A stretch of DNA of 64,000 bases, from the NCBI GenBank assembly GCA_022821965.1, contig JAJECN010000002.1, positions 124,001 to 188,000 of the forward strand, read 5' to 3'. Positions 10,885-15,422 of the stretch are shown here, piece after piece (the stretch's first letter is position 1; each line of letters starts with the position of its first letter). A program made the position numbers and the translations under genes. Below the pieces are notes generated by a model that searched no databases, was not told the DNA's origin, and was given only the letters and a program-made list of their open reading frames with translations. Origin of the DNA: Candidatus Poribacteria bacterium. Its GTDB lineage: Bacteria > Poribacteria > WGA-4E > WGA-3G.

Positions 10885-12573
10885 GTGGATAAAGTCCACC
10901 GTGACCGTGGTGGAAAACCTACAAAGCTTAAGGTCCATCCTGTTGGGCAAACCCTACGTCACATGAAGATAGCCGGACTTGCAGAAAACCCTGAACGTGG
11001 TTTTTGGCGTATTCTTTCTGAGGAAGTGTCTCAAGCGGAAGCGTCGGAAGAAACGTCTCAGTCAGAAGAATCCAACAAAATTAAAACGCTGGCTGAGTTT
11101 ATGACATGGGCAAAGAAATTTGATGGCGGAGCTCACGTTTTTCGCGGAGTACCAAATGAAGCATATGGGATACAAGCATCGGCTTATCGGCGTCCGGAGG
11201 AAGAACAAAGAAGTTTTGAGAAATTCCTCTATATCAATAGGGATTTAATCAGAGAAGCTCGCCTTCGAGGATACGATCAGAAGGATGGACGGGAACTGAA
11301 GCCATTAGAAATACTTGCTGATCTTCAGCATTTTGAAGCAGCTACCTGTCTGATAGATTTTACCTACAGTGCCCAAATCGCGCTCTTTTTTTCCTGTCAA
11401 CCAACCTCCAAAGAACCTCTAAACGGTCAAGTCTTTGCGGTGCATAAACAACCTCCGAAGTTTAAAGAGATTACACCAGACTTGCTAAAAGAAGATATTG
11501 ATGAGTTTCTCAAAGATGATAAGGAGGCTCAGCTGTATTATTGGCAACCTCGGCACCAGAACCACCGTATTATTGCACAGCAATCTGTTTTTGTATTTGG
11601 AAATTATGAGTTGAAGCCCGATGACGAATGCATTATCGCAGGAGATAGAAAAGAAGATATCCTGAAGGAACTTCAAAACGTATCAGGAATCACTGAAGAC
11701 AGACTGTTCCCCGATTTTGAAGGCTTCGCGCGTGTACGTGGGGTAACGGCACCATACACGGAGCGCACTCCCTTTGATTATAAGACTCGTGGGTATTCGG
11801 CGTATGAAAGAGGGGACTATAAGGATGCTATAGCGGATTATGATATAGCCATTGATAAGGACCGCAATGATGCCGAGAGCTACTACTTCCGAGGGCTTGC
11901 CCAACACTCACTCGAAGAGTGGGGGAAAGCCATCGTTGATTTCGACCATGCGCTTCGCCTGGATTCAGAGCATAAGGATACCTATTATTTTCGTGGACAG
12001 ACAAAATTTCAATTAGATCAATATGAGGAAGCCATCGACGATTTTAATAGTGTAATTCGCCTGGATTTAAAGAATAAGTATACTAAGTATGCCTATTTTA
12101 CGCGTGGGCTTGCGAAATACGACTTGGAACGATATGACGAAGCCATCGTTGATTTCGACCATGTAATTCACCTGGATTCAGAGTATAAGAATGCCTATTA
12201 TTGGCGTGCGCGTGCGAAATACGACTTGGAACGATATGACGAAGCCATTGTCGACTTTGATGAAGCGATTCGCAGAAGCCTTGAGGGAAGAGGAGTTTAT
12301 TATTGGCGTGGTCTTTCAAAGAAGCGATTAAAGCAGTATCCTGCCGCCATTGCTGATTTTGACAGAGCAATCCGTTTGGAACCTACTCATGCCTATTCAC
12401 ACTATCATCGCGGAGGCGCAAAGTTTGAGCTTGAGCGCTTTGCCGAGGCACAAATAGACCTTAAAGAGGCATTATCACTAGCTAAACAGAGTGACGATGA
12501 TGCACTAATAGGTTGGATTTTGAATCTACGTAAAAAAGTGCCCGAAAGTAGTGAATCTGACATTCCCTTTTGA
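10885..12573 (+). CDS. FRG-domain and TPR-repeat protein (5' end interrupted by amber codon)
   Basis: A 562-residue protein. Residues ~68-290 form an FRG domain (HVFRGVPNEAYGIQAS, LADLQHFEAATCLIDFT, QVFAVHK). Residues ~302-545 hold seven TPR repeats of the pattern YYxRGxAKxxLxxYxEAIxDFxxAIxLx. FRG domains occur in proteins of mobile and defence islands and their activity is not established. In the same frame an ATG at 10771 opens MNDQYQYVGEHLTRNIV, hits TAG at 10822, then continues ELIIELFTGKIAEKQEII into this frame, so the true N-terminus was probably at 10771. The GTG at 10885 is the first usable start after the stop and has only a distant AGGA. Confidence 0.8.
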   Translation: MDKVHRDRGGKPTKLKVHPVGQTLRHMKIAGLAENPERGFWRILSEEVSQAEASEETSQSEESNKIKTLAEFMTWAKKFDGGAHVFRGVPNEAYGIQASAYRRPEEEQRSFEKFLYINRDLIREARLRGYDQKDGRELKPLEILADLQHFEAATCLIDFTYSAQIALFFSCQPTSKEPLNGQVFAVHKQPPKFKEITPDLLKEDIDEFLKDDKEAQLYYWQPRHQNHRIIAQQSVFVFGNYELKPDDECIIAGDRKEDILKELQNVSGITEDRLFPDFEGFARVRGVTAPYTERTPFDYKTRGYSAYERGDYKDAIADYDIAIDKDRNDAESYYFRGLAQHSLEEWGKAIVDFDHALRLDSEHKDTYYFRGQTKFQLDQYEEAIDDFNSVIRLDLKNKYTKYAYFTRGLAKYDLERYDEAIVDFDHVIHLDSEYKNAYYWRARAKYDLERYDEAIVDFDEAIRRSLEGRGVYYWRGLSKKRLKQYPAAIADFDRAIRLEPTHAYSHYHRGGAKFELERFAEAQIDLKEALSLAKQSDDDALIGWILNLRKKVPESSESDIPF

Positions 12574-12622
12574 CAGAAAATAACTGTACTGCCATCAGAA
12601 ATTTAGGTCGCTGTCTACACTA

Positions 12623-12645
12623 AGAGTGTGATACAATAACACTCT
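12623..12645 (+). terminator. Hairpin after FRG-TPR gene
   Basis: AGAGTG (12623-12628) and CACTCT (12640-12645) lie 50 nt past the stop. There is no T tract, so termination is only possible. Confidence 0.35.
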
Positions 12646-12698
12646 CACTGAAAGGTGTATCCGGTAGAGAACCATCCTTTCTCTGATTGGGAGAGTTT

Positions 12699-12790
12699 GA
12701 TATTAGGCTGCCTGTAATATCAAGCAGATAACAATGTCTCAACATTGTGGATTGGCAGATGACGAAAATCCGCGTTATCCGCGTCATCTG
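12699..12790. repeat. Cluster of three inverted repeats in intergenic DNA
   Basis: The 615-nt gap 12574-13187 has no convincing gene. It contains GATATTA/TAATATC (12699-12705, 12715-12721), ACAATG/CATTGT (12731-12736, 12743-12748) and CAGATGACG/CGTCATCTG (12756-12764, 12782-12790). The last pair encloses ATCCGCGTTATCCG, a wording seen in widespread bacterial intergenic repeats. Confidence 0.55.
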
Positions 12791-12828
12791 TGTAATCCGT
12801 GATTCAGATAATTTGCGCGCCGCACAAC

Positions 12829-12909
12829 CTAACAGGTTATGCTACGGAAGATGGCACAGTCTAACAGGAAACCATGCTACGAGAAGTACAGCCTAACAGG
12901 TTATACTAC
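12829..12909. repeat. Degenerate 32-bp tandem repeat, three units
   Basis: CTAACAGG recurs at 12829, 12861 and 12893, exactly 32 bp apart, each followed by a variant of TTATGCTACG. The first and third copies form a small palindrome (AACCT-AAC-AGGTT type). Confidence 0.6.
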
Positions 12910-12970
12910 ATAAATCCTGCTTCTGACAATCCACCGCCAAAATATTTATACGCCCATTACTCACTTGCAT

Positions 12971-13102
12971 CAGGGCCATTCAATTTTAAGAAATTATTGG
13001 ATTTCACGTCTTTTTTCAAGGATCCGGTTCGGTTAGGAAACCGAACCTACCGGGCCTGGTGGGTGAAAATTCGAGCGAAAAATGGACAATTGAATGACCC
13101 TG
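12971..13102. mobile_element. 132-bp MITE with 10-bp target-site duplication
   Basis: Terminal inverted repeats CAGGGCCATTCAATT (12971-12985) and AATTGAATGACCCTG (13088-13102) match at 14 of 15. Both sides are flanked by the identical decamer TCACTTGCAT (12961-12970 and 13103-13112). Inside is a palindrome GTTCGGTT-AGGA-AACCGAAC (13027-13046). There is no transposase, so it must have been moved in trans. Ends beginning CAGGG and a duplication of 8-10 bp would suit an ISAs1-type element, but that assignment is inference. Confidence 0.8.
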
Positions 13103-13121
13103 TCACTTGCATCCTCTGTGC

Positions 13122-13150
13122 TTGACCGATTTTCTGTTATCGGGTATATT
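13122..13150 (+). promoter_or_regulatory. Promoter of the Gfo/Idh/MocA-dehydratase operon
   Basis: TTGACC (13122-13127), 17 bp, TATATT (13145-13150); start expected near 13157. The -35 box lies 10 bp beyond the MITE target duplication. Confidence 0.65.
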
Positions 13151-13187
13151 ATGGTAAACTTAATCGTTAACATATCAAAGAAGGTGT

Positions 13188-14189
13188 ATGACAATCGAAA
13201 CGAAATCGCCTGTTCGCTGGGGAATCCTCAGCACAGCAAATATTGCCACAAAGGTCGCTCGTGCAATCCATCTCGCTCGGAACGCTGACTTAATTGCGGT
13301 TGCGAGTCGGACTGAAGAACGTGCTACTGCGTGGGGACAAGAGCATAATGTCCCTACGACCTATGGCACCTACGACGCGCTTCTCGCTGATGATTCACTT
13401 GATGCCATCTATATCCCCTTACCACCCTCCCTCCACGCTGAATGGACAATCAAGGCAGCGGAACACGGTAAGCATGTCCTTTGCGAGAAGCCGCTCGCCG
13501 CAAATGCTGATGAAGCCACCGCTATGGTAGATGCCTGTCGTCAAAACGGTGTGCAGCTCATGGACGGTGTTATGTGGGTGCATCATGAACGTACCCCAGC
13601 AATGAAGCGGAAGATAACGGATGGGACCCTTGGACAACTCCGCCGAGTGACGGCTGCGTTCACCTTCAATTGGGACACAATCCCAGTCGGCAATATCCGA
13701 GCAATGAAAGAATTCGCGGGTGGAAGCCTCGGAGATTTAGGCTATTACTGTGTCCGCGCGATTCTCTGGGCATTCGAGCAGATGCCGACACAGGTCTTCG
13801 CGACAGCGCGTTACGAAGTAGGAGTGGACTTTAATCTCGCTGGCATCCTCTGGTTTGAAGATGAACGCATTGCTACCTTGGATTGTGGGTTTGACACAGG
13901 GCTTCGGAAGTGGTTTGAGGTTGCTGGTACGCGCGCCTCAATCGTCTGTGATGATTTCACAGTCCCTACCGCCGAAGATACTGCTCGATTCTGGGTTCAC
14001 GGAGCAGACGGCAACGAGCGAAATGACGTTGAAGGCTGTATTCAGGAGGTTAGGATGATTGAACGATTCTCTGAGATTGTGCACTCTGGGAACCTTGAAG
14101 AAAAATGGTCCGAAGTAGCAGTAAACACAATGCGCATCTGTGACGCGCTCCTTGAATCGGATCGACGTAAAGAAATCATCAAATTGTAA
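13188..14189 (+). CDS. Gfo/Idh/MocA family NAD(P)-dependent oxidoreductase
   Basis: A 333-residue protein with an N-terminal Rossmann fold (RWGILSTANIATKVARAI), the family EKP motif (HVLCEKPLAANADEA, about residue 90-105) and a C-terminal substrate domain. These enzymes oxidise or reduce sugars, inositols or their derivatives with NAD(P). The ATG at 13188 follows GAAGGTG. It is 45 nt upstream of an enolase-superfamily dehydratase on the same strand, which suggests oxidation of a sugar to the acid followed by dehydration. The exact sugar is unknown. Confidence 0.9.
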   Translation: MTIETKSPVRWGILSTANIATKVARAIHLARNADLIAVASRTEERATAWGQEHNVPTTYGTYDALLADDSLDAIYIPLPPSLHAEWTIKAAEHGKHVLCEKPLAANADEATAMVDACRQNGVQLMDGVMWVHHERTPAMKRKITDGTLGQLRRVTAAFTFNWDTIPVGNIRAMKEFAGGSLGDLGYYCVRAILWAFEQMPTQVFATARYEVGVDFNLAGILWFEDERIATLDCGFDTGLRKWFEVAGTRASIVCDDFTVPTAEDTARFWVHGADGNERNDVEGCIQEVRMIERFSEIVHSGNLEEKWSEVAVNTMRICDALLESDRRKEIIKL

Positions 14190-14234: not shown

Positions 14235-15422
14235 ATGAAAATTACAAATATTGAAACGTTTATTGTGGATGCGGGGTGGCGCCCTTGGACCTTTGTGAAG
14301 GTGGAAACAGACGAAGGCATCACCGGCTACGGCGAATGTAGCGATGGCAGAAACCCTAACGGTGTGGTAGGAACTATCAAAGACTTCACCGCCCTGTTAA
14401 TTGGACGAGATCCACGCCCCTATGAGATGCGGTTCTGGGACATGATTCGCGGTTCTCGGCAAAGCCCTGGCGGTATCGCGGCGAAAGCGATCGCAGGCAT
14501 CGAATGCGCGCTGGTAGATATTAAGGCGAAGGCATTGGGAATCTCTGTTGTTGAGTTGTTCGGGGGACCGACCCGTGATGATGTACGGGTCTATTGGTCG
14601 CACTGTGGTTCTTCCCGGGCACGCAATTATGAACTGATTGGCGTACCCCCCTTAAAAAGCATGGATGACATCGCTGCATTAGGGCGTGAGGTCGTTGAAA
14701 GAGGTTTCACCGCCCTCAAAACTAATGTTATCTTTCCCGGCGATCAAGCTTCTGTCCACTTCGGTGGCTTTGGCGGTGGACCCGGTACGACCGACGGAAA
14801 TGTAACGCCTCAAGTTCTACGACACATCGAAACCTTAATCGGCACTTTCAGAGAAGCAGTGGGACCCGATGTCGGTATTAACCTCGATCTGAATTTCAAC
14901 TTCAAACCGGAGGCGTGCATGCGTATCGCCAAAGTCCTTGAGCAGTTCGATATGCTGTGGTTGGAGATTGATATGTACGACCACGAGGCTATCCGTCAAA
15001 TTAAGGATTCTACAACGACGAAGATCTGCACCGGCGAAAACCTCTATTACATGCGAGAATACCTCCCCTATTTTGAATGCCGCGCCGCCGATGTGTTCAT
15101 GATAGATGTACCGTGGAACGGATTCGCACCCTCAAAGAAGATTGGTGACTTGGCGAACGTGTTCCAACTCAACGTTGCGCCGCACAATTACTATAGCCAC
15201 CTTGCTACCTATATAAGCGCAAGTCTCTGCGCGGTCCTGCCTAATGTACGAATCATGGAGATCGATATTGATGATGTCCCTTGGAAGGATGACTTAACAA
15301 CGCATATCCCAGATATTACGGATGGCTACATGAAAATCCCGACGCGTCCGGGGTGGGGCACCGAACTCAACGAAGAGGTTGCCAAAGCACACCCCTGGCC
15401 TGATCGGAGAGGCGAGTGGTAA
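14235..15422 (+). CDS. Enolase-superfamily sugar-acid dehydratase
   Basis: A 395-residue mandelate racemase/muconate lactonizing enzyme family member. The capping domain (MKITNIETFIVDAG) is followed by a barrel with KTNV (about residue 161), metal ligands LDLNFNF, WLEIDMYD and TGENLYY, and a catalytic His in VAPHNYYSH. Its length and the GENLYY/APHN pattern resemble galactonate-type dehydratases, but the substrate needs testing. SD GGAAAGGA before the ATG. It is co-transcribed with the upstream Gfo/Idh/MocA gene; two further Gfo/Idh/MocA genes face it on the other strand. Confidence 0.88.
   Translation: MKITNIETFIVDAGWRPWTFVKVETDEGITGYGECSDGRNPNGVVGTIKDFTALLIGRDPRPYEMRFWDMIRGSRQSPGGIAAKAIAGIECALVDIKAKALGISVVELFGGPTRDDVRVYWSHCGSSRARNYELIGVPPLKSMDDIAALGREVVERGFTALKTNVIFPGDQASVHFGGFGGGPGTTDGNVTPQVLRHIETLIGTFREAVGPDVGINLDLNFNFKPEACMRIAKVLEQFDMLWLEIDMYDHEAIRQIKDSTTTKICTGENLYYMREYLPYFECRAADVFMIDVPWNGFAPSKKIGDLANVFQLNVAPHNYYSHLATYISASLCAVLPNVRIMEIDIDDVPWKDDLTTHIPDITDGYMKIPTRPGWGTELNEEVAKAHPWPDRRGEW

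Follow-up and report, generated by a model that had tools for sequence, protein, structure and literature searches.

The window analysed here, a stretch of 64,000 nucleotides from a Candidatus Poribacteria genome, raises the question of what brings a small mobile element to rest immediately upstream of a promoter, and what such an insertion means for the gene that the promoter serves. Read directly from the window sequence, positions 12971-13102 hold a 132-bp ISAs1-family MITE (+ strand) with a left terminal inverted repeat, CAGGGCCATTCAATT (12971-12985, + strand), and a right end, AATTGAATGACCCTG (13088-13102, reading CAGGGTCATTCAATT on the - strand). The two ends are complementary at 14 of 15 positions and form the sole inverted pair reported within 12000-14000. 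Perfect 10-bp copies of the target duplication TCACTTGCAT border the element at 12961-12970 and 13103-13112. The right copy is followed by a 9-bp gap (CCTCTGTGC, 13113-13121), a distance that is constant in the family, and then by the -35 box TTGACC (13122-13127, + strand), a 17-bp spacer and the -10 box TATATT (13145-13150, + strand). The initial annotation had rightly seen the element close upstream of the -35 box, but its distance of 10 bp needs correction: TTGACC begins 9 bp past the right duplication and 19 bp past the element end. The promoter serves a GFO/IDH/MocA-type oxidoreductase gene (13188-14189, + strand), with an MR_MLE (mandelate racemase/enolase-type) gene downstream (14235-15422, + strand). 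The proposed designation of these genes as a sugar-catabolism operon is putative: Pfam places the first product among the GFO_IDH_MocA oxidoreductases and the second among the MR_MLE enolase-type enzymes.

Copies, relatives and parent elements

Searching the genome itself (5.69 Mb in 62 contigs) with the element returned three full-length copies with 100, 99 and 95% identity over 132 bp, together with two right halves. The second full-length copy is bordered by a perfect 10-bp duplication, GAGGGTAAGC, and the third (L003) has no target duplication. Among 40 genomes searched, 22 contained matches to the MITE at E<=1e-12. When the three copies from the genome itself and 60 near-full copies from relatives were examined together, a perfect duplication of 9-11 bp was present in 36 of the 63 and one with at most one mismatch in 46. 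Copies are mostly intergenic (61/63), the other two lying within predicted ORFs. Short, non-coding, multicopy and equipped with terminal inverted repeats and a target duplication, the element has the properties of the MITE that had been proposed from its 14/15 inverted ends and perfect duplication. A chance inverted repeat is ruled out by the full-length copies within the genome and by the duplications across copies. A single fixed sequence shared by all relatives is likewise ruled out, by the matches in 22 genomes and by relatives in which the promoter is free of the element.

Each of the 38 genus genomes gave a match when searched with the window region; some of the listed matches cover only the MITE. 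G001, the nearest relative (92% over the downstream part), is identical from the -35 box to past the -10 box and carries no element there; at the locus L040, part of the left flank is in common with the window and the element is again absent. Since the gfo promoter also occurs in relatives without the element, it must predate the insertion and is no part of the inserted sequence. The earlier suggestion of a fairly recent insertion is supported. In the window the insertion spared the core promoter together with the 19 bp preceding it and replaced sequence only beyond about -54. Judging from the sequence, the promoter should stay functional, because the duplication and the 9-bp gap leave native DNA in place to about -54; changed regulation of the gene is possible but unsupported. 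Upstream of the MITE, at window positions 12740-12920, we observed the repeat-like sequence CGTCATCTGTGTAATCCGTGATTCAG (partly present in L040) and two 22-bp copies of CCTAACAGGTTATRCTAC, so that repeats seem to be piled up in this intergenic region.

The guess that the parent of the MITE is ISAs1-like is borne out by full-length elements, one of them complete in the genome itself and others in congeners. The resident element measures 1346 bp, has ends CAGAGGCATTCAATT and a 9-bp duplication, and encodes a 401-aa transposase that matches NCBIfam NF033564 (ISAs1 family) at 213 bits against a cut-off of 70. PF13808 and PF01609 (DDE_Tnp_1_assoc and DDE_Tnp_1) are above cut-off in this protein, with no Transposase_mut match at E<=0.001; an AlphaFold model (alignment of 4) was too poor for use, at a mean pLDDT of 42.6. 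In the congeners G017, G018 and G005, ISAs1 elements of 1339-1345 bp have exactly CAGGGTCATTCAATT as both of their ends and are bordered by 10-bp duplications. Ends beginning CAGGG and a duplication of 8-10 bp are features of the ISAs1 family, and the partner elements resemble it in transposase family, CAGGG-type ends (CAGGG/CAGAG), duplications of 9-10 bp and a length of 1.2-1.35 kb. As the congener elements combine the ends of the window MITE with 10-bp duplications, the MITE is plausibly an element that an ISAs1 transposase could move, presumably in trans. A CAGAGGCATTCAATT-type end also lies about 125 bp inside several contig ends of the genome, which suggests that more ISAs1 copies were lost to assembly.

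Distance between elements and promoters

Promoters in the following comparisons are predictions made with a weight matrix based on the E. coli consensus. Sigma70-like promoters were predicted in 41 of 126 MITE flanks versus 25 of 582 control stretches, and nearly all -35 boxes of the flank promoters start 18-19 bp from the element. The same spacing emerges from 125 MITE flanks that were not selected for promoters, where 30 of the 48 occurrences of TTGAC fall at an offset of 18-19 from the element end and -10-like hexamers accumulate at 41-42. It is seen in MITEs both with and without the hairpin interior described below. Furthermore, in the flanks of 33 full ISAs1 elements with duplications, TTGAC occurs 21 times within the first 60 bp, 18 of them at 18-19.

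The distance was resolved to the base pair in 103 independent elements (26 full IS and 77 MITEs) drawn from the loci in hand and chosen by their ends and a 9-11 bp duplication only, after removal of elements with a common target flank; the set includes a few alternative pairings of neighbouring ends (e.g., L399, L227), which mostly dilute the signal. Taking the best promoter over both flanks, the -35 box stands exactly 9 bp past the duplication (+9) in 22 of the 26 IS and 45 of the 77 MITEs. A promoter scoring at least 8 is found at +9 in 70 of the 103 elements (21/26 IS, 49/77 MITEs), versus two at +8, four at +10 and a mean of 0.74 over the other offsets. Random points with the same geometry have a promoter in 5 of 3679 cases. 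At +9, a promoter scoring at least 8 is missing in 33 of the 103 elements, and one scoring at least 6 in 26. This distance is the same for 9-bp (14 elements) and 10-bp (53 elements) duplications, and therefore the cut on the promoter side is the fixed one. Either end may face the promoter: full IS are divided 13:13, and hairpin MITEs present the left end in 22 cases and the right end in 11, with 10 unclear. Given a distance to the -35 box that is kept to a single base pair in 70 of 103 elements, promoters appear to direct the transposase to its target.

Other mobile elements served as weak controls. Nine IS630-type elements with recognisable ends, among 30 loci of the same genus, keep no fixed distance and have promoters at 25, 29 and 51 bp. 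TA-duplication MITEs yielded only five candidates that could be used; some of these are doubtful, and no promoter accompanies any. Elements of the Transposase_mut type could not be used, since PF00872 was found in none of 37 genus genomes at E<=1e-20. At the gfo promoter itself, the locus L054 has a MITE with the -35 box only 1 bp past the duplication; in L065 a MITE-like right end, for which no duplication was found, lies 12 bp from the -35 box. The idea that this promoter is a special hot spot, hit independently in the window, L054 and L063, was considered, but we prefer the general rule because L063 obeys +9 at the promoter on its other flank; L054 does not fit.

Beyond the genus, a single end-finder was run on 49 loci (25 plasmid stretches and 24 loci from the Poribacteria phylum) and returned 16 distinct elements whose ends were clear. 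Fifteen of the 16 come from outside the genus, and seven of these 15 (L423, L431, L432, L445, L455, L474 and L486) have a TTG hexamer 7-10 bp past the duplication, and in the remaining eight no TTG hexamer was found at that distance. In a further set of 20 Poribacteria loci, most of which belong to another genus of the family, 12 had recognisable ends when a duplication was not required, and TTGAC lies at 17-18 bp in four of the 12. The pattern beyond the genus is thus uneven and suggestive only; several proteobacterial ISAs1 members that were tested differ from the Poribacteria elements in giving no such promoter signal. Promoter targeting may be a property of an ISAs1 subclade. One ISAs1 copy, L479 (G066:C140), has no target duplication but lies between good promoters, each 17-18 bp away, an arrangement that might come from recombination between two promoter-sited copies.

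Promoter or sequence motif as the target

The explanation that we favour, with a probability of roughly 0.86, is that the window MITE was moved by an ISAs1 transposase and that the place of insertion was set by a sigma70 promoter. Alternatively, the transposase might directly read a TTGACA-like motif with AT-rich DNA downstream, promoters being hit only for containing the motif. Direct reading would suit the full IS of the genome itself (L168/L268), which has TTGACT at +9 inside an apparent WD40-type gene with no clear -10 box, as well as the ISAs1 elements L431, L432 and L445 from other taxa, with TTG at 7-9 bp and no convincing -10 box. The surroundings of the motif speak against it: among 44 flanks picked for TTGAC alone at +8 to +10, 41 have at least four of six matches to TATAAT at 16-18 bp, versus 58 of the 451 TTGAC found elsewhere in the same loci. 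Moreover, where TTGAC is absent (59 elements), matches to the -35 box and to the -10 box each still peak at +9, so that the -10 signal stands in the right place even there, and the target consensus contains the extended -10 tG. The -35 and -10 boxes both matter, and therefore the whole promoter looks like the target; recognition of the motif by itself seems unlikely to us.

Much less probable is the account given in the initial annotation, that of an ordinary MITE whose proximity to a promoter is incidental and which perhaps altered the regulation of the operon. The element did replace the sequence upstream of about -54, but it did so at the distance that is the rule for its family, and left the core promoter with its adjoining 19 bp intact. 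Random or broadly intergenic insertion, with only the copies upstream of promoters surviving selection, would explain why almost all copies are intergenic but hardly the sharpness of the peak at +9 relative to +8 and +10, the fact that near-identical and presumably young IS copies within a single genome show it too, or the lack of a fixed distance in the IS630-type elements of the genus, and we give it the least credence.

In the promoter-set mechanism, a non-autonomous MITE would be moved in trans by a DDE transposase of the ISAs1 family to a position dictated by a sigma70 promoter. The strand on the promoter side would be cut 9 bp upstream of the -35 hexamer, at about position -45, and the other cut would fall 9-10 bp further out, giving rise to the duplication, with either element end able to face the promoter. 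Recognition would involve RNA polymerase bound at the promoter, by way of sigma region 4 or the alpha-CTD, and not a reading of the promoter sequence by the transposase itself. In the usual numbering of the -35 box, cuts near -45 and -55 lie where the alpha C-terminal domains of the polymerase touch the DNA. The element would gain by inserting outside genes while leaving the core promoter untouched. Docking of the transposase on the promoter-bound holoenzyme is the most likely route, by analogy with the contact with the transcription machinery proposed for TnGBS-type elements, which was in turn modelled on Ty3 (PMC3942029, main text). A bolder proposition, which we consider evenly poised, is that the ISAs1 transposases of this clade, which are unrelated to the Mutator-like promoter-targeting elements discussed below, independently evolved polymerase-guided insertion at about -45/-55, with single-base precision and in either orientation, by docking on a sigma70 holoenzyme, and that they filled these genomes with promoter-homing MITEs that mark active promoters of uncultured bacteria.

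Related systems and the hairpin cargo

The yeast retrotransposons Ty1 and Ty3 are led by transcription factors to integrate at a set distance upstream of transcription starts and thereby spare genes. Unlike the elements described here, they are retroelements acting at Pol III genes in a eukaryote, with unrelated chemistry and host machinery. Among bacterial elements, TnGBS and ISLre2 (p-MULT 3) and part of the ISKra4 group (p-MULT 4), all of them Mutator-like, insert upstream of sigmaA -35 boxes at 15-17 bp from the inverted repeat, those of p-MULT 3 mostly with IR-right toward the promoter (PMC3942029). Compared with these elements as the main text of that paper describes them, the Poribacteria elements likewise possess a DDE transposase and insert a fixed distance upstream of -35 boxes. 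They differ in having an ISAs1 transposase, in a distance of 19 bp (10+9), in presenting either end to the promoter and in that MITEs obey the rule too. Thus, the Poribacteria ISAs1 elements act like the Mutator-like promoter-targeting elements of that description but do not belong to them, because their transposase is not Mutator-like. The name ISAs1 is absent from the main text of PMC3942029, and we found no report of promoter targeting by ISAs1 or by MITEs in the open-licence literature, which is not proof that none exists.

If the favoured reading is true, two or more distinct families of DDE transposases would have come to direct transposition to promoters, and comparison across the families would make the means of promoter sensing (DNA motif, sigma factor or alpha-CTD) testable. 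Promoter targeting would explain how MITEs reach high numbers without damage to genes, and would caution that a MITE beside a promoter need not signify selected regulation. It would also offer a route, from sequence only, to the promoters of uncultured Poribacteria.

The interior of the window MITE holds a REP-like hairpin core (13026-13051, GGTAGGTTCGGTTTCCTAACCGAACC on the - strand), in which GTAG directly precedes a palindrome. The genome contains 48 such hairpin sites versus none for a reversed control pattern, and the fold has a z of -2.9. Of 26 exact copies, 11 have T..A as the free stem pair, 15 have G..C and none is mixed, a compensatory change; with the GTAG tag, the palindrome and the many copies, this gives the core the properties of a REP. 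A role as terminator was considered; no T-run follows the hairpin on either strand of the window sequence. Besides ISAs1-type MITEs, the core is found in an ATGAAG..CTTCAT repeat resembling a TA-duplicating MITE and in composite repeats of greater length, and it also stands at solitary sites; it looks like a small palindrome carried as REP cargo in otherwise unrelated mobile repeats. In A. variabilis, GTAG repeats of the GTAG-type REP are reported to be inserted within longer palindromes (PMC3733652); as far as that source describes them, they are like the hairpin core in having GTAG before a palindrome and tens of copies, and unlike it in that the hairpin here is cargo in MITEs of more than one family.

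Further MITEs that share the ends of the window MITE, and likewise have duplications, contain other interiors, including other hairpins. L332-L338, L170, L340 and L063 are ISAs1-type MITEs whose near-identical ends enclose very dissimilar interiors, including GTAGGAGCGAGC..GCTCGCGA and GTAGGAGGGATT..AATCCCGA hairpins that resemble other REP types. A 315-bp element in L351 (252-566), with a perfect 10-bp duplication, contains the hairpin core twice, on either side of part of another common repeat that looks to have recombined into the core. Y1_Tnp was found in 36 of 37 genus genomes, and in the three stretches of the genome examined no RAYT/Y1 gene was flanked by the MITE hairpin. In L025 (C10:37954-40991 of the same genome) the hairpin core lies between near-identical 21-bp direct repeats, CATCAAAATTACATAGGATGA and CATCAAGATTACATAGGATAA, in a region that may be coding. 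Elsewhere in the genome, L345 (C6:56000-57486) has a Y1/RAYT-like gene with GTAGGCACGC..GCGTGCC hairpins on both sides, which suggests a genuine REP-RAYT pair in Poribacteria.
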